Assembly: GCF_000526495.1 (NCBI RefSeq)
Contig: NZ_JAGE01000001.1
Location: 928,001-992,000, forward strand
Reading direction: 5' to 3'
From: Ruminiclostridium josui JCM 17888
Lineage (GTDB): Bacteria > Bacillota > Clostridia > Acetivibrionales > DSM-1351
DNA length: 64,000 nt
The notes under the pieces were generated by a model, which worked only from the letters and a program-made list of their open reading frames with translations, made no database searches and had not been told where the DNA came from. The position numbers and the translations under genes were made by a program. Shown here in pieces: positions 11,729 to 19,673 of this stretch; positions within the stretch are counted from its first letter, which is position 1, and each line of letters begins with the position of its first letter.

Positions 11729-13606
11729 ATGAACTTTTTGGGTACATGGATGCTGCGATTTGCTTTTACATGTGGTCTTATATCGTTTCTGCTCATTGCC
11801 TTTAAACAAGAAAAAGAAGAAAATAAGAATCTTGGAATACTAACGGGTATAGTTGCAAGCTTTGGAGTTCTTCTATCATCGCTCCTTTTACTTTATTCTC
11901 TAGTAAGTGGAAACTATTCAATTGAATATGTGTATCATAATACAGAGAAATCACTTCCGCTAATATATAAAATATCGGCATTCTGGTCTGGGAGTTCAGG
12001 TTCAATGCTTATTTGGACTTCTGTATTGGCTGTTCTTCTAATTATAGTCTTTCTTAGAAATAAGGAAAAAAGTTCAACCAAAACTATATCTGGTGTTTTA
12101 TTGTTTGTTATGACACTTTTTATGTTCGTTGTAACATTCATAAAAAATCCATTTAAAGCAGTGTCAGAACAAAGTGACGGATTTGGTCTTAATCCTTCGC
12201 TCCAAAGTCTAGGTATGGTCTTTCACCCACCTGTGATAATTATCGCCTTTTCTTTTTTCTTCATAGCTTTTGGGTATCAATTATTTGACATCAGAAAAAA
12301 CACTGAGGAACACATAAATATTACATGGAAATGGGCAATGTGGGGTTGGGTACTTCTTACCTTTGGAATTATCACAGGCGGTATATGGGCATATACTGAG
12401 CTTGGTTGGGGTGGCTACTGGGCATGGGATCCAATAGAAAATTCATCTTTGGTTAACTGGTTATTTGCAACAGCTTTTCTCCATAGCTTACGAGGTAAAA
12501 GCAATAACAACAAAAGAATGAATTTCCTTTTGATATTTTTAACTGTATTCACTATACTTGTTGGAACATACATTGCAAGAAGCGGATTATTAAATTCGGT
12601 ACATGCTTACAGCAGCCGTGGTGTCACAGTGGTTTTCGGTGTGGTATTAGTGGTACTCGTACTGCTTTTCATTGTTTATTACTTCAAAATTAAAAGATTA
12701 CATCCCAAAAATAATACTAAGAAATCATTTCTGAGCATAATTAAGTCTGGCAATCTGTTTTCTATACTAAGTATTATAACAGCCGTATTAATTTTCGGAG
12801 GTACTACATTCCCTTTGTATGGAGGGCTCTTTCTCAAAGCTGTATCGGATACGCCAATAAGTTTCTATGAGTACGTTTTCGGTGTATTTGGTATACTGGT
12901 ACTTTTAATTCTTGCAATTAATCCAAGCTTATATACAAGGAAAGTTCTTTTAATTCCAGGTAGCGTATGTGGATTAGCAGTATTAGCTCTAATGCTATTT
13001 CTTTGTGATTATGGCTTCCTTACAAAATTGTCTTTAGCTGTTTGTGCCATGCTGACAGTAAATTTAATTATAGAACTTGCATTTAATTATAAAAAGCACA
13101 TTGGTAATAAGAAAAGTGTGGCAGTTTTATTGCTACATGCTCCACTGATAATAATGGTAGTAGGATTTGCAGGGTCTATGGGTATGCTTTTAAATTCTGA
13201 TGTAACTATCGAAAAGGGCAATACTGCGGTTGTGGGAAAATATGAGGTAAAATACAGAAACCTATATTGGAAAGAAGAACCAGGGAAAACAACAGCTGTT
13301 TCTGTTATAGGTGTTAGCGGTCCTAAAGGAAAACTCCAACTAAAGCCCGAACTTTCATATTATCAGAAAATGAAAATATCTCACTCCAGAGCAGTTATAA
13401 AATCAGGGCTTGGTGAAGATTTGTACATAATTTTCGAAGGAATAGACGACAAAGACAATATCACATTAAAAGTTAAAATAGTAAAGTTTGTTAGTCTTGT
13501 ATGGATAGGCAGTATTTTATTGCTTATAGGTACAATCCTCTATTATTTTTCTGAAAATAAAAAAACAAGGATACTCATAAAAAATATTTTAGAACAGGAG
13601 GTATAA
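11729..13606 (+). CDS. CcmF/NrfE-like cytochrome c haem lyase
   Basis: A 625-residue polytopic membrane protein of the haem-handling family that attaches haem to apocytochrome c outside the membrane. The tryptophan-rich WWD signature GWGGYWAWDPIENSSLVNW is near residue 230. Histidines in MVFHPPVI and LHSLRG flank it as expected for haem ligands, and SSGSMLIW matches CcmF. The C-terminal ~110 residues form an extracytoplasmic domain closed by one more helix. There is no CcmE, CcmH or ResB/CcsB partner in the window. It begins an operon: the stop is 2 bases before the next ATG, whose AGGAGG lies inside this gene. Clostridia rarely carry such genes, so its pairing with two cytochromes is informative. 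Confidence 0.87.
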   Translation: MNFLGTWMLRFAFTCGLISFLLIAFKQEKEENKNLGILTGIVASFGVLLSSLLLLYSLVSGNYSIEYVYHNTEKSLPLIYKISAFWSGSSGSMLIWTSVLAVLLIIVFLRNKEKSSTKTISGVLLFVMTLFMFVVTFIKNPFKAVSEQSDGFGLNPSLQSLGMVFHPPVIIIAFSFFFIAFGYQLFDIRKNTEEHINITWKWAMWGWVLLTFGIITGGIWAYTELGWGGYWAWDPIENSSLVNWLFATAFLHSLRGKSNNNKRMNFLLIFLTVFTILVGTYIARSGLLNSVHAYSSRGVTVVFGVVLVVLVLLFIVYYFKIKRLHPKNNTKKSFLSIIKSGNLFSILSIITAVLIFGGTTFPLYGGLFLKAVSDTPISFYEYVFGVFGILVLLILAINPSLYTRKVLLIPGSVCGLAVLALMLFLCDYGFLTKLSLAVCAMLTVNLIIELAFNYKKHIGNKKSVAVLLLHAPLIIMVVGFAGSMGMLLNSDVTIEKGNTAVVGKYEVKYRNLYWKEEPGKTTAVSVIGVSGPKGKLQLKPELSYYQKMKISHSRAVIKSGLGEDLYIIFEGIDDKDNITLKVKIVKFVSLVWIGSILLLIGTILYYFSENKKTRILIKNILEQEV

Positions 13607-13608
13607 AA

Positions 13609-15723
13609 ATGACTAAGGTATCAAATCTATCTCACAAGATTATTGTTGTTATTGCAATAACAGCAATTTTTATGGTTACTCAAATTTCTTCAGTACGGTC
13701 TGGAACTATTGATTTATCAAAGCCGGAGTTTGACTTTGACAAAATCGTTTTTACCAAACATCAGCCATACTCAGGTTATGAGAACCATATGATTGATGGG
13801 AACTTTGGATTTACAGCTGTAAAAGGCGGTGGATTGTATATCCTCAATAATGCCTTTTCAGGGAATCCTACTGTAACTAATGTTTTGCAAAACTCTATCT
13901 GTAAAAACGGACGTTACGCAGGAAAGAAGCTTACAGGCGGAGCCTTCTATTCCTTTGATCTGAGCTATGATGCGAAGCAGATTGTTTTTGCCTATACAGA
14001 TGCTCAGAACTCCTACGGTGTTTGGAATGAAAACACAACTTACCATATCTTCAAGGTAAATGTGGATGGGACAGATCTTACACAGCTGACTGACGGAAAT
14101 GTAAATGATTTTGATCCACGCTGGCTTCCGGATGGAAGAATTGTATTTATATCAGAAAGAAGAGGTGGTTATGGACGTTGCCATCAGCGTACAGTTCCAA
14201 CCTTTAACCTTCATACAATGAATGCAGACGGAAGTGATATCAGATGCATAAGTTACCATGAAACTAATGAATGGAGCCCATGCGTAGATAACAACGGTAT
14301 GATTGTATACACTCGTTGGGACTATATGGACAGAGGAGCTAATCATGCACATTCTGCGTGGATAACCACACCAGACGGCCTTGATGCAAGAGCTATTACC
14401 TTAAACTATCCAAACTCGGGTAAAGATTGGTGGACCAATGTACCTTTAATGCAAAATTCATTACGGGCAATTCCTAATTCAAACAAATATGTTGCAACAG
14501 CTGCCCCTCACCATGCTCAAAACTACGGACCACTAATTGTAATTGATCCTGATGTTGAGGATGATGACAATCTTTCTACTATTACAAAAATTACACCTGA
14601 TGCAAAGTATCCTGAATCCGAAACAGGAACTACAACTGATCAAAAATATGGAACACCCTACCCTTTGAGTGAGGATTATTTTTTGTGTGTATATGATCCA
14701 AATGCAAATACTAATGGTGCAAACAAGCGCTATGGCATATACGCAATAGATTCAAAAGGAAACAAGACAATGCTATATAGCGATCCTAATTTTTCTTGTT
14801 ACAGCCCGATACCATTAAAGCCGCGTACCGTGCCAAATAGTATTCCGAGCTCGGACATACCCACTGGACAGGCTCAGGATGGAGTTGTATCAGTAATGAA
14901 CGTTTATGACTCACTTCTACCTTTCCCTGCAGGAACAAAGATTAAAGAGCTGAGAATATGGCAGGTATATCCAAAGACGACACCTCTAGCAACAGACCCT
15001 ATAGTAAGCTATGAAGGAACTGAAAGCTTGTGGTCAGGAAGAAATACCAGAGGACTCTTAGGAACAGTACCCGTTGAAGAAGATGGAAGTGCATCTTTCT
15101 ATCTCCCCCCTGGAAAAGCTGTTTTTTTCCAAGCTATTGACCAAGATGGAACTGCTGTTCAGACTATGAGATCTGATACATTCCTTATTCCCGGACAAAA
15201 TCGGCTGTTATGTCAAGGCTGCCACGAACCTGCCCGTAAAGCTGCAGAGAATCCTGAAAGTGTTCCCCTTGCATTAAGGAGGGCACCATCAAAAATTACA
15301 CCAGATCCATCCGAAGGAGCAAGGCCAATGAGCTTCCCAAGGCTTATTCAGCCTATCTTGGATAAAAAATGTATATCATGTCACAATGGTTCACAGGTGC
15401 CTGACCTTAGAAAGGGAAATATAGACTCTCAAACAAAATGGTTTAGCTCATATAAAAACTTGAAACCATATGTTGCTTTATTTGATGTAATGTATCCAGG
15501 TGCTAACTGGGATCATGTTTACCCAAGAACTGAACCTGGCAAGTTTGGTGCTAGAGCATCAACTTTATATAAGAAGCTTAAGAGCGGACATGGTAATCTT
15601 ACACAAAGTGAGCTTCACTCATTTATCATATGGTTGGATTCAGGAATTGCACCGTTCTTCGGAGACTATAAGAATATTGATGCACAGTTAAGAGGAGAAC
15701 AGGTTGAACCTTCTCTGGATTAA
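13609..15723 (+). CDS. Secreted di-haem cytochrome with TolB-like propeller and HzsA-type middle domain
   Basis: A 704-residue exported protein. Residues 1-31 form a Sec signal peptide ending near SSVRSG. Residues ~50-420 contain PD40/TolB-like propeller repeats (DLTQLTDGNVNDFDPRWLPD, SDIRCISYHE, EWSPCVDNNG). Residues ~440-560 match the middle domain of hydrazine synthase alpha-like proteins (LLGTVPVEEDGSASFYLPPG, then AVQTMRSDTFLIPGQ). They lead to haem motif CQGCH at about 535; a second motif, CISCH, is at about 588. No dockerin or anchor is seen. It does not imply hydrazine chemistry; the domain also occurs in many uncharacterised multihaem proteins. It lies directly after the haem lyase that presumably matures it. 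Confidence 0.82.
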   Translation: MTKVSNLSHKIIVVIAITAIFMVTQISSVRSGTIDLSKPEFDFDKIVFTKHQPYSGYENHMIDGNFGFTAVKGGGLYILNNAFSGNPTVTNVLQNSICKNGRYAGKKLTGGAFYSFDLSYDAKQIVFAYTDAQNSYGVWNENTTYHIFKVNVDGTDLTQLTDGNVNDFDPRWLPDGRIVFISERRGGYGRCHQRTVPTFNLHTMNADGSDIRCISYHETNEWSPCVDNNGMIVYTRWDYMDRGANHAHSAWITTPDGLDARAITLNYPNSGKDWWTNVPLMQNSLRAIPNSNKYVATAAPHHAQNYGPLIVIDPDVEDDDNLSTITKITPDAKYPESETGTTTDQKYGTPYPLSEDYFLCVYDPNANTNGANKRYGIYAIDSKGNKTMLYSDPNFSCYSPIPLKPRTVPNSIPSSDIPTGQAQDGVVSVMNVYDSLLPFPAGTKIKELRIWQVYPKTTPLATDPIVSYEGTESLWSGRNTRGLLGTVPVEEDGSASFYLPPGKAVFFQAIDQDGTAVQTMRSDTFLIPGQNRLLCQGCHEPARKAAENPESVPLALRRAPSKITPDPSEGARPMSFPRLIQPILDKKCISCHNGSQVPDLRKGNIDSQTKWFSSYKNLKPYVALFDVMYPGANWDHVYPRTEPGKFGARASTLYKKLKSGHGNLTQSELHSFIIWLDSGIAPFFGDYKNIDAQLRGEQVEPSLD

Positions 15724-15764
15724 TTCCATAGCCTAAAAATAAATAATGGATGGGAGTGTTAAAA

Positions 15765-18374
15765 ATGAATAGGCATACAAAGAAAAAATTTATTCCCATG
15801 ATTCTTTCCATAGCAATAGTTATTACTATAGTAAGCTTCCTGTTTCCAGAAAGCAATATTGGTTATACGGCTCAAAATTCATATTATTCACCTTTTGATA
15901 CTGCATATTCTCCCGATGGCAGCGTGATTGCGGTATCAGATTCAACTAAAGGACAGATTGAGATATTGAATGCATCCAATGGTGAAATCCAAAAGATTAT
16001 ACAATTGGATGGACAGCCAAAAGCTCTTGCATGGAACGGGAATAAAAACATATATGTTTCAGAGTACGGAGCAGGAACTGTTGCCGAAGTAAATCCTGTT
16101 TCAGGAGAAGTAACAAGACGATTTCCAACAGGGGCGAACCCTCTGGGAGTAAAAGTAGTAGACAATAAACTTATTGTATCTGATTATAGCCTTAAGAAAG
16201 TATCTATTGTTGATTTATCCTCCGGTAGTGTTGAAAAAAATATTGCTGTGAGAGATTATCCCTACTTAATTGATAGTACTATTGATGGTAAATATGCAGT
16301 AGTTGGACATGCATTACCATCAGGAAATGCTTCAGAATCCAAGTATGCTGCATCAGTTACTTTTATTGACATGAACACCTATAGTGAAGCTGCAAACATA
16401 GTACTTCCACAGGGCTCATCAAATGTAAGAGGAATTAAATGTTCACCAGACGGCAAGTGGGCATATGTTCTTCATACATTTGGAAAAACCTCCCTCCCTA
16501 CTACCCAAATTACTAGAGGGTGGACAATGACAAATGCAGTTACCATAATTGATATAGCAAATAAAGAAATATATACCACATTCTTATTGGACAGAATGAT
16601 GGAGGGAGCAGCAGACCCATGGGGGCTAACAATATCATCAGACAGTAAAACCATGTGGGTTAGTGTGTCAGGAACTCATCAGGTGCTGAAAATCGATTTA
16701 AATGGTCTTCACCAGCTTTTACAAGGAAATTTAAACGGTGGTGATAGCTCGCAAATCAATCCTAACACATACTACAAAATAGTAAACAGAAATAGTGGAA
16801 AAGCAGTTGATATACCAAATGGTAATCCAGCAAACAACACTCAGTTGATACAATGGGATGATGTTGGCAACAATAATCAGCAATATAGGTTTGTCGCTGA
16901 TTCAGAAGGATATTATACCATTATCAACAAAGGAACTAATAAAGCATTGGACAACGCAGGTGCTACCTCTGATAATTCAGCTGTGGTTGAATGGGATGTG
17001 ACTTCTTCAAATAATCAGAAATGGAAGATAATTGACGCTGGTAATGGATATATTAAGCTTCAGGTGAAATCCAGCCAGAAATATTTAGACGTAAGTGGTG
17101 CTTCCGTTGCTAATAATGCTGGTTTAGTAACAAACAGCAGCAGCACAAGTTTGAGCCAGCAATGGAAAATATCAGTGGCTGGAGCCACAAATTCCGGCAA
17201 TTATTCATTATTAAATCGTTCAAAATCAGGTTTTGATAAACCATATTCAGATATCTGGTTACAAATCAAAGCTGATCCTTCAAAAAAAAGTGACCTTAAA
17301 TACGATCTTGGAGCCTTATGGGGAGCAGGTCTACTAAAAAAGATAGATTTACCAGGTCAGGGGCCAAGAGGTATATCATTATCACCAGACGGTAAAACTG
17401 TAGCCGTAGGTGCATATTTTGCAGGAGAAGTATATCTTATAGATGCAACAGGAAATGTATTAAAAAATACAGTAAAACTCGGTATTCAACCCCAAGAAAG
17501 CCAAGTTAGAAGTGGCGAACGTATATTCCATGATGCATCAACTACTACACAAAAATGGCTCAGCTGTGCTTCCTGTCATCCTGATGGCAGGGCTGATGGA
17601 CTAAATTGGGATATGCCAAATGATGGTATAGGCAATACTAAAAACACTAAATCAATGCTATATGTTTTTGACACCCCTCCAGCAATGTGGCGTGGAGTAA
17701 GGGATGATGCCCATGTTGGTGTAAAAGCTGGTTTCAAATACATAAAGTTTAAAGAGCCTACCCAACAAGAACTTGATGATGTTGCTGCTTATATCAAGAG
17801 TCTCTCTGAAGAACCTAGTCCATACTCCAATGAAGGTACAATGACAGCAGATGCTGCTGCAGGAAAAGCAATTTTTGAAAGCCCGGAAACAAATTGTTCA
17901 TATTGTCATTCTGGACCACTGTATACAGATTTGAAGGCTCACGATGTAGGCTCAAAAGATAACCTTGATCCCGATGGATTCTATTATACCCCAACACTAA
18001 AGGAATTGTGGAGGACTGCTCCTTATATGCATGATGGTTCTGCTGCAACACTTCGCGAAGTATTGACAACAATGAATCCAGATGACAAACATGGAAAGAC
18101 TTCACACCTTACCGATGAGCAAATCAACCAGTTGGAGGCTTACTTGCTTCAGATAGATAGCAATCCTAATCAAACATTACAAAAAGGTGATGTAAACGGA
18201 GATGGAGATGTTAATGCAATTGACTTGGCATATATGAAAAAGTACTTAATGGGAGAACTTGATTTGCCTGCTGAACAGCTTAAAGCAGCTGATGTTGATG
18301 ATAATGGGGATATAAATGCAATTGATTTTGCTATTTTGAAACAAGTAGTTCTTGGACTAAAACCTAATTTATAG
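15765..18374 (+). CDS. Dockerin-bearing di-haem cytochrome (YVTN propeller, ricin lectin, MauG-like domain)
   Basis: A secreted protein of about 869 residues; ATG 15765 follows a GGGAG site. Segments in order: signal peptide (1-~37); YVTN-type propeller blades (~40-320); ricin-type lectin/CBM13 (~330-476, with YYKIVNRNSGKAVDI and repeated W-D/N-Q patterns); further propeller sequence (~486-576, RGISLSPDGKTVAVGAYFAG). A di-haem cytochrome c peroxidase/MauG-like region follows, with CASCH (~600) and CSYCH (~711) and a possible distal Met in APYMHDGSAATLREV. Last comes a type I dockerin (~808-869) with two repeats containing DVNGDGDVNAIDLAYMKKYL and DVDDNGDINAIDFAIL. The dockerin should place it in the cellulosome by binding cohesins. 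The lectin suggests glycan binding. The redox partner is unknown. Confidence 0.88.
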   Translation: MNRHTKKKFIPMILSIAIVITIVSFLFPESNIGYTAQNSYYSPFDTAYSPDGSVIAVSDSTKGQIEILNASNGEIQKIIQLDGQPKALAWNGNKNIYVSEYGAGTVAEVNPVSGEVTRRFPTGANPLGVKVVDNKLIVSDYSLKKVSIVDLSSGSVEKNIAVRDYPYLIDSTIDGKYAVVGHALPSGNASESKYAASVTFIDMNTYSEAANIVLPQGSSNVRGIKCSPDGKWAYVLHTFGKTSLPTTQITRGWTMTNAVTIIDIANKEIYTTFLLDRMMEGAADPWGLTISSDSKTMWVSVSGTHQVLKIDLNGLHQLLQGNLNGGDSSQINPNTYYKIVNRNSGKAVDIPNGNPANNTQLIQWDDVGNNNQQYRFVADSEGYYTIINKGTNKALDNAGATSDNSAVVEWDVTSSNNQKWKIIDAGNGYIKLQVKSSQKYLDVSGASVANNAGLVTNSSSTSLSQQWKISVAGATNSGNYSLLNRSKSGFDKPYSDIWLQIKADPSKKSDLKYDLGALWGAGLLKKIDLPGQGPRGISLSPDGKTVAVGAYFAGEVYLIDATGNVLKNTVKLGIQPQESQVRSGERIFHDASTTTQKWLSCASCHPDGRADGLNWDMPNDGIGNTKNTKSMLYVFDTPPAMWRGVRDDAHVGVKAGFKYIKFKEPTQQELDDVAAYIKSLSEEPSPYSNEGTMTADAAAGKAIFESPETNCSYCHSGPLYTDLKAHDVGSKDNLDPDGFYYTPTLKELWRTAPYMHDGSAATLREVLTTMNPDDKHGKTSHLTDEQINQLEAYLLQIDSNPNQTLQKGDVNGDGDVNAIDLAYMKKYLMGELDLPAEQLKAADVDDNGDINAIDFAILKQVVLGLKPNL

Positions 18375-18408: not shown

Positions 18409-18446
18409 TAGCGTAGCGGTTTTGTGGCTGCTACGCTACTTTTATG
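18409..18446 (+). terminator. Terminator after the cytochrome operon
   Basis: TAGCGTAGC (18409-18417) pairs perfectly with GCTACGCTA (18430-18438) over a 12-base loop, followed by CTTTTATG. It lies 34 bases after the dockerin gene stop. Confidence 0.75.
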
Positions 18447-18617: not shown

Positions 18618-19673
18618 ATGAAAAACAAAGATAAACTTAAAGGATTTTTTTCAGGAATTATATTTTCAGCAATCATAGGGGCATTTGCATTGGGGGTAAC
18701 AGTTTTTGCAGCACCTATAGAAAGCAAGCTATCAGTTGTGTATGATAACATTAAAATCTATATTGATGGGACCCTTTTCCAACCTAAGGACTCTAATGGT
18801 AACGATATTAAACCTTTTATTTCAAAGGGAATTACCTATTTGCCTGTATCAGCATTAAGTAAGGCCCTGGGAAAAGATGTTAGTTGGGATGGAAAGACAA
18901 AGAGTATTTATATAGGAAAACAACCTGCTTCAAAGGCTAAAGAAGTAACGGTTTCTAATGTTAATGAACTCTTTGACGCACTTGGCTCTAATAAACATAT
19001 TAAGCTGAAACCAGGAACTTACAATATTTCAGATTTGAATCAAGATTACATTAAAAGTAAAAATATATATTGGGAAAGCGTGTACGACGGCAATGAATTA
19101 ATTCTAGATGAAATAAGTAATCTGACATTGGAAGGTTTGGGAGATAGCCCTGTTGAATTAGTTGTTGAGCCAAGATATGCAAATGTTCTGACATTTAAAA
19201 ATTCAAATAAAATAGCTATAAAGAATATTAAAGCCGGACATACCATTGAGAAGGGTTCCTGTGTAGGGGGCGTATTCAAATTTAATTTATCAAAGGATAT
19301 AGATATATCAGACAGTATTTTATATGGATGTGGAACCTATGGAATTATAGCAGAAGATACTGAACACCTAAAATTTAGTAATTCCATTATCGAGGAGTGT
19401 ACATACGGAGCAATGACTTTAAATTACTGCAAAGATTTCGCCTTTGATAATAGTAAAATCAGAAAGTGTGAAAACTATGAGTTGATTGAAATTTATTCTT
19501 CAACAAGTATAGTATACAACAAATGCGAAATATCTGATAATACATCAAGCGATATTTTATCTGTAAGCTTATCTAATAACGTTAAATTTACAAATTGTAA
19601 ATTCAAAAATAACAGCCCATTTAATCCTACTCTCTTCCCTGCTGTTGATTTTACAGGAACTACTTTCGAGTAA
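18618..19673 (+). CDS. Secreted stalk-domain and right-handed beta-helix protein
   Basis: A 351-residue exported protein. Residues 1-~33 form a signal peptide (FFSGIIFSAIIGAFALGVTVFAAP). Residues ~40-110 resemble the copper amine oxidase N-terminal-like stalk domain (VYDNIKIYIDGTLFQP, GITYLPVSALSKALGKDVSWD), a wall-binding or adaptor module in Firmicutes. Residues ~120-351 form a right-handed beta-helix with regularly spaced ladders (NLTLEGLG, NKIAIKNIKAG, KDIDISDSILYGCGTYGI, DFAFDNSKIRKCE). This fold is common in polysaccharide lyases and carbohydrate-binding proteins. No catalytic set can be assigned and there is no dockerin. The start is supported by GGAGGTG. It is monocistronic by its own promoter and the hairpin after it. 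Confidence 0.75.
   Translation: MKNKDKLKGFFSGIIFSAIIGAFALGVTVFAAPIESKLSVVYDNIKIYIDGTLFQPKDSNGNDIKPFISKGITYLPVSALSKALGKDVSWDGKTKSIYIGKQPASKAKEVTVSNVNELFDALGSNKHIKLKPGTYNISDLNQDYIKSKNIYWESVYDGNELILDEISNLTLEGLGDSPVELVVEPRYANVLTFKNSNKIAIKNIKAGHTIEKGSCVGGVFKFNLSKDIDISDSILYGCGTYGIIAEDTEHLKFSNSIIEECTYGAMTLNYCKDFAFDNSKIRKCENYELIEIYSSTSIVYNKCEISDNTSSDILSVSLSNNVKFTNCKFKNNSPFNPTLFPAVDFTGTTFE

Follow-up and report, generated by a model that had tools for sequence, protein, structure and literature searches.

The 64,000-nucleotide stretch of Ruminiclostridium josui JCM 17888 DNA analysed here (the window) carries a three-gene operon that relates a plant-wall-degrading system to hydrazine synthase (HZS), the enzyme of anammox bacteria. 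On the reading that we favour, with moderate confidence, the operon encodes a secreted, four-haem alpha/beta-gamma oxidoreductase, HZS-like in build, that is carried on the cellulosome and would perform peroxidase/MauG-type chemistry at the plant wall.

All three genes lie on the + strand, as do the features within and directly after them that are described below. Gene 1 (11729..13606; 625 aa) encodes a CcmF/NrfE-type haem lyase, a membrane protein recognised by family and structure matches; gene 2 (13609..15723; 704 aa) encodes an HZS alpha-like protein with a hydrophobic N-terminus and two CXXCH motifs; and gene 3 (15750..18374; 874 aa) encodes an HZS beta-gamma-like fusion with a lectin insert and a dockerin. 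Only 2 and 26 bases separate genes 1 and 2 and genes 2 and 3, respectively, and the start codon of gene 2 is preceded by AGGAGG. After gene 3 there is a terminator-like hairpin of 13 pairs (18409..18438), a consensus match only, from a scan that found 9 terminator-like sites where shuffles gave 4.3; the corresponding promoter scan was uninformative (30 promoter-like sites, 29.8 in shuffles). The genes are real, intact and operon-like, and the ends of their reading frames coincide to the base with those of the three adjacent genes described in a first-pass annotation. GC content is 0.34 in gene 1, 0.40 in gene 2, 0.38 in gene 3 and 0.35 in the rest of the window. Downstream of the operon, the product of positions 18618-19673 combines a Cu_amine_oxidN1 domain with a right-handed beta helix; in genome G009 an apparent homologue (by eye) is found at L104:2362-3465, some 11 kb away from the operon there.

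The identification of gene 1 as a CcmF-like haem lyase, made in the first-pass annotation, holds up well. The protein matches the CcmF/NrfE family TIGR00353 at 4.4e-84 (283 bits, below the curated cut-off of 569), Pfam Cytochrom_C_asm and CcmF_C both above cut-off, and the CcmF structure 6zmq at 1.2e-43. Its WGGYWAWDP motif and histidines 166, 252, 292 and 470 align with those of 6zmq, so that it has both the tryptophan-rich WWD motif and the four conserved histidines of CcmF haem lyases.

Gene 2 is, by domain match and alignment, a homologue of the HZS alpha subunit. Residues 444-540 (14938..15228) form an HZS_alpha middle domain (Pfam 1.3e-19, above cut-off), and two CXXCH motifs align with those of the alpha subunit, the first (residues 535-539; 15211..15225) at the position of haem alpha-I and the second (residues 588-592; 15370..15384) at that of haem alpha-II; an HZS_alpha domain together with two haem motifs is what marks an alpha subunit. 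The N-terminal half is propeller-like, and the protein can be aligned piecewise with HZS alpha, 5c2v_A. An HH motif at residues 301-302 (14509..14514, with His302 at 14512-14514) was also located by alignment. The AlphaFold model of this protein, from a 6-row alignment, was too poor for use (pLDDT 40). The earlier description of this product as a secreted di-haem protein with an HzsA-type middle thus stands for its domain and its haem motifs, while secretion, for gene 3 as for gene 2, corresponds to hydrophobic N-termini judged by eye.

Gene 3 combines the two remaining HZS subunits in one chain. The first part of an HZS-beta-like propeller occupies residues 42-324 (15873..16721; alignment, model and Foldseek), followed by a ricin-type beta-trefoil lectin insert at residues 339-474 (16764..17171; Pfam 1.1e-29, ThreeFoil 1.4e-26) and by the last propeller strands at residues 529-576 (17334..17477; alignment and model). 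Then comes a di-haem HZS-gamma/CCP-MauG-like domain at residues 583-803 (17496..18158; family matches), with CXXCH motifs aligning at the positions of haem gamma-I (residues 606-610; 17565..17579) and haem gamma-II (residues 716-720; 17895..17909), and finally a type I dockerin at residues 812-867 (18183..18350; Pfam Dockerin_1 1.6e-17). In the alignment, Trp647 (17688..17690) falls at the position of gamma-His144, the place at which, according to PMC12758564, CCP and MauG have their catalytic tryptophan. The Dockerin_1 match is above cut-off, as are CCP_MauG (7.6e-8) and Cytochrom_C (6.7e-8). By alignment, gene 3 therefore has the two-CXXCH domain with Trp at the catalytic position that typifies di-haem peroxidases and MauG, as well as the beta propeller and gamma di-haem part expected of HZS: it matches HZS gamma (5c2v_C) at 4.5e-26 and HZS beta (5c2v_B) at 6.5e-20. 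An AlphaFold model from 3 rows was good in the propeller alone and unusable for the di-haem, lectin and dockerin parts; the best PDB match of the predicted propeller in Foldseek was again HZS beta, 5c2v_B (E 1.2e-21). The HZS beta-gamma fusion model NF052342 is matched at 1.6e-43 and 148.9 bits, far under its cut-off of 1250, and by this measure gene 3 is related, not equivalent, to the HZS beta-gamma protein. As a marker NF052342 was rejected, since it matches 3/3 metagenome-assembled genomes (MAGs) but also 3/14 control genomes, none of them above cut-off; the control matches arise because the propeller is promiscuous.

The first-pass annotation had rightly named the MauG-like di-haem part and the type I dockerin of gene 3, and had missed the beta propeller, the lectin and the relationship to HZS. 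It had also described the products of genes 2 and 3 as two di-haem proteins; each does carry two CXXCH motifs, but they are better read, probably, as a single alpha/beta-gamma complex with four haems.

Of 58 genomes of the order, the window's genome included, 8 carry HZS_alpha, each with a dockerin-bearing beta-gamma partner, and the same 8 appear among the 60 relatives searched; in a sample of the phylum it occurs in 3 of 398 genomes (the window's and two others), and within the genus in only 4 of 11. Identities are 92% for Ruminiclostridium papyrosolvens C7 and 85% for Pseudobacteroides cellulosolvens, and 46%, 45% and 35% for the matches in Pirellulales, Phycisphaerae and Hydrogenedentota MAGs. 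In all 8 clostridial loci alpha directly precedes beta-gamma, all four CXXCH motifs are kept, and lectin and dockerin are above their Pfam cut-offs. The ccmF gene directly precedes alpha in 7 of the 8; at the eighth locus, in G035, genes of ResB and Cytochrom_C_asm type follow downstream after one intervening gene. The operon proposed in the first pass thus recurs in cellulosomal relatives. Quick trees place the clostridial rows together, with support of 96 (alpha) and 97 (beta-gamma); these join two other Bacillota genomes in the alpha tree (99) and then Phycisphaerae and Pirellulales rows. Anammox rows sit on long branches (2.6 and 3.0), and with this quick method long-branch caution applies. 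Neither lectin nor dockerin is listed in the beta-gamma proteins of the Phycisphaerae or Hydrogenedentota MAGs or in that of G124, and because of their absence from these relatives both were probably gained in the cellulosomal line.

Two further observations concern the wider family. G124 and G302 (L068:5056-11602, L069/L090), Bacillota from outside the order, have an N-terminally longer alpha protein; G124 has in addition a nearby CcmF gene and a beta-gamma protein with one CXXCH kept and no dockerin listed. Among 392 sampled genomes of the Planctomycetota, the phylum of the Pirellulales MAG, HZS_alpha occurs in 77, 8 of which hold at least 12 candidates each, a large expansion.

The operon genes are under purifying selection. 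Against six orthologues, dN/dS is 0.052-0.070 for alpha, 0.105-0.148 for beta-gamma and 0.104-0.164 for ccmF, with G035 saturated for alpha and beta-gamma and several dS values above 1. The dockerin alone gives 0.46 between the window's genome and G006, which indicates that it is weakly constrained in this comparison. Its Pfam score, above cut-off in all eight orthologues, shows that the dockerin is genuine, and the genome, with 75 dockerin matches, is cellulosomal; a type I dockerin in a dockerin-rich genome is the mark of a cellulosomal protein. Together with the purifying selection and the recurrence of the operon in cellulosomal relatives, this makes a haem protein fixed to the cellulosome the most plausible reading. 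Six genomes other than the window's offered a second dockerin protein for comparison, and in all six its repeats resemble by eye those of the beta-gamma dockerin (five type-1 dockerins and one type-2); Pfam identifies this partner as GH43 in G054 and GH5 in G004. Repeat types are AID/ATD in Ruminiclostridium, SLD/SID in G054 and M-x-D in P. cellulosolvens and G013. Dockerin-bearing neighbours of the haem loci include GH43-CBM6 in G054, and GH5 and GH9 in G004, where they surround a one-CXXCH type of dockerin protein described below.

What would such a complex do? CcmF would load the four CXXCH motifs with haem c on the outer side of the membrane. The beta-gamma protein would dock to a cohesin by its dockerin and touch sugar by its lectin, and alpha, which has no dockerin, would be held to beta-gamma as in HZS, given the shared architecture. 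The chemistry would be of the di-haem peroxidase/MauG kind, with no hydrazine synthesis: the gamma-I-like haem (His610) would work with Trp647 and swap electrons with the gamma-II-like haem, and the alpha-I-like haem, together with His539 and the family-conserved His302, may be a second reactive site. A wall-derived molecule would be oxidised beside the hydrolases with the use of peroxide or another small acceptor, the substrate being a guess. Its likeliest target would be a phenolic or a sugar end derived from the wall, and a role as a peroxide guard, in which a di-haem peroxidase clears H2O2 around the anaerobe's cellulosome and takes no part in wall attack, ranks next. The CCP_MauG match and the tryptophan at the CCP/MauG position would suit such a guard; a bare di-haem peroxidase, on the other hand, needs neither a lectin nor alpha, the most constrained of the three genes, and we regard the guard as a rather unlikely explanation.

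The haem lyases of the relatives point to a second kind of putative docked haem protein. CcmF_C is found in 9 of the 60 relatives, at 10 loci, and 7 of these genomes have the ccmF-alpha-beta-gamma trio. At the other three loci (in G004, in G047 and, as a second one, in P. cellulosolvens) the CcmF gene directly precedes that of a protein of about 1010 residues that combines Ig/PKD-type domains with a single CXXCH and with a dockerin above cut-off. This second operon type lies at L087:6506-11431 (G004), L088:6658-11627 (G047) and L089:5802-10995 (P. cellulosolvens); its dockerin protein has a conserved region of about 500 residues without a Pfam match and is unrelated to alpha and beta-gamma. 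PF01578 is matched in 12 of the 60 relatives at E<=0.001 and above cut-off in 11, which indirectly bears out the initial remark that c-type cytochromes are usually missing from this group of clostridia. In ten of these 11 genomes, G035 among them, the lyase locus also encodes CXXCH proteins that bear a dockerin; the eleventh is G037. Within the order, c-type haem attachment is thus almost restricted to genomes that have proteins of this kind, in a count where genome kinship is uncorrected.

Four haem motifs in a surface complex, and the three loci at which a different dockerin protein with one CXXCH stands beside CcmF, would also fit a general surface redox function, in which the haems form an electron outlet at the surface of the cellulosome that links oxidation of sugars or phenols to a partner cell, to iron or to humics. 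These organisms belong to a fermentative group with few haem lyases, however, which makes an electron outlet improbable.

A possible link between haem-dockerin loci and FkbO/Hyg5-like chorismatases was considered and given little weight. Such genes (alignment A3) occur in 38 of the 60 relatives at E<=0.001; at a line of 100 bits, drawn after a gap from 119 to 43.8 bits had been seen, the number falls to 10, and 9 of these genomes have haem-dockerin loci. The link is weak because three of those nine genomes supplied A3 rows, because related genomes inflate the hypergeometric figures, and because in G000, G005 and G007 the gene lies in what appears by eye to be a natural-product cluster. Direct adjacency to haem genes is limited to G004, G035, G036 and a Hydrogenedentota MAG. 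Chorismatase-like genes, FkbO/Hyg5-like or with a Rid domain, stand beside haem loci at L015:3291-4448, L087:5270-6319, L089:11156-12283 and L074:102-1217, in three clostridia and one Hydrogenedentota MAG.

MauG and MbnH suggest another role, that of a protein-modifying enzyme which would oxidise residues of a co-secreted protein such as alpha or a cellulosomal protein. Gene 3 matches the MbnH-family model TIGR04039 at 2.1e-16 and the MauG model TIGR03791 at 1.5e-11, both under cut-off, but alpha and the haem lyase apart, none of the genes that might encode a substrate recurs at every locus, and we give this role little chance.

Homology and architecture might also suggest true nitrogen chemistry, that is, turnover of NO, hydroxylamine or nitrite, up to hydrazine synthesis itself. 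The residues reported to define HZS (PMC12607021 and PMC12758564, from the accessible parts of both) speak strongly against it. Those of alpha were followed in an HZS_alpha alignment of 18 anammox rows from 15 genomes, labelled true anammox by their sequence likeness to 5c2v, and 33 non-anammox rows, 8 of them from clostridia. Tyr591, the proximal ligand of haem alpha-I, is present in 18/18 anammox rows and 0/33 others, its place being taken in clostridia by Arg (7/8) or His (1/8). Cys303 of the zinc site is Cys in 17/18 anammox rows and Tyr in 8/8 clostridial ones. In the gamma part, Cys165, which makes a third bond to haem, is replaced by Lys666, and His144 by Trp647, each in 8/8 clostridial rows; this tryptophan is not general, three non-clostridial relatives having Ala or Ser instead. 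The column of His772, distal to haem alpha-II, holds Gly in 8/8, and His661 is kept in 8/8, one column off. Because Tyr591, Cys303, gamma-Cys165 and gamma-His144 are all replaced, the complex of genes 2 and 3 is, as judged from these residues, not an HZS. PMC12758564 reached the same verdict for its own homologues in the parts accessible, and nitrogen chemistry is very improbable here. The column of gene 2 His302 shows the opposite pattern to Tyr591, with His in 33/33 non-anammox rows and 0/18 anammox rows, and His302 is a candidate for the ancestral partner of the alpha-I haem outside anammox, which would have been lost as anammox HZS took up Tyr591.

A gap in haem supply counts against the favoured reading and is its main weak point. 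Ferrochelatase (PF00762) was found in 0/11 genomes of the genus and 0/8 further searches, 18 distinct genomes altogether, by a search that matched 8 of 14 known genomes used as a control. Heme b synthase AhbD was above cut-off in 0/11 genomes of the genus, the best match having 168 bits where 500 are required, with weaker radical-SAM matches to AhbD in 11/11. Haem would accordingly come from outside or be made by an unseen route. That the genes are kept for haem-free proteins whose fold serves only for binding, as this gap might suggest, is scarcely credible when all eight orthologues retain the four CXXCH motifs, each locus retains a haem lyase and purifying selection is strong.

The favoured reading, a docked four-haem oxidoreductase, can be set against known systems. 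With anammox HZS (PDB 5c2v) it shares the HZS_alpha domain, the beta propeller, the gamma di-haem domain and the two plus two CXXCH motifs; the clostridial form differs in its fused beta and gamma and its added lectin and dockerin, and in the quick trees HZS itself lies apart at the end of a long branch. The bacterial di-haem peroxidases, MauG and MbnH share the CCP_MauG domain and Trp647, to which the clostridial complex adds propeller, lectin, dockerin and an alpha partner, and the MauG and MbnH scores are sub-cut-off. Peroxidockerins are not known to be CXXCH proteins. They are haem peroxidases with a dockerin that belong to the peroxidase-cyclooxygenase superfamily (PMC4420034), a distant precedent in which haem peroxidase and dockerin are shared and the superfamily differs.

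Among the closest known systems, too, are the HZS-like alpha and beta-gamma pairs that were reported in December 2025 from Planctomycetota, from Desulfobacterota and from a small number of other groups (PMC12758564; what follows draws on the accessible parts of that paper). In both, alpha and fused beta-gamma homologues are co-located; as in clades I-III, alpha comes first and Trp stands at gamma-His144, and lack of Tyr591 is common to both. The clostridial alpha has two CXXCH motifs, which are reported lacking in clades II and III, and the clostridial beta-gamma has no extra haems, unlike clades I and III, and no Cys165, unlike clade I. Unlike those pairs, too, the clostridial loci have no FG-GAP gene alongside, carry lectin and dockerin, and occur in a clostridial host. 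The strings 'clostridi' and 'bacillota' are absent from the main text of that paper, and its beta-gamma tree holds 'Bacillus'.

As to cellulose-directed cytochromes, Cbp2D and Cbp2E of Cellvibrio japonicus are secreted proteins with a c-type cytochrome domain, which the bacterium requires to grow on insoluble cellulose (PMC12542752). The clostridial proteins would resemble them in being secreted, cellulose-directed and equipped with such a domain; Cbp2D and Cbp2E differ in having CBM2 and in belonging to an aerobe with LPMO, and the accessible parts of PMC12542752 do not mention HZS-like parts or a dockerin. According to a passage of the review PMC12484212, native bacterial cellulosomes have so far yielded no oxidative enzymes that degrade lignin. 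Dockerin proteins are known from ANME archaea (PMC9012536), where cytochrome-dockerin fusions are not described in the parts accessible. The words cytochrome, heme and peroxidase are absent from the main texts of PMC6507058, PMC5590126 and PMC11557425, two of which concern the P. cellulosolvens cellulosome. The open-licence PMC literature yielded a single paper that brings HZS and the cellulosome together, by its listing unrelated, and the clostridial lectin- and dockerin-bearing HZS-like form was not found there.

More broadly, and tentatively, the native cellulosomes of several clostridial lineages may carry a redox module made up of tetra-haem HZS-like complexes and separate one-haem dockerin proteins, each type with its own haem lyase, that attacks or protects the plant wall by oxidation. 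A docked haem oxidoreductase would add redox chemistry to cellulosomes, which are treated as hydrolytic machines, and fermenting anaerobes would gain a possible oxidative step on the plant wall. Relatives of HZS, long deemed a hallmark of anammox, are placed in culturable clostridia such as R. papyrosolvens and P. cellulosolvens, where an ancestral, non-hydrazine function of the HZS fold becomes testable.
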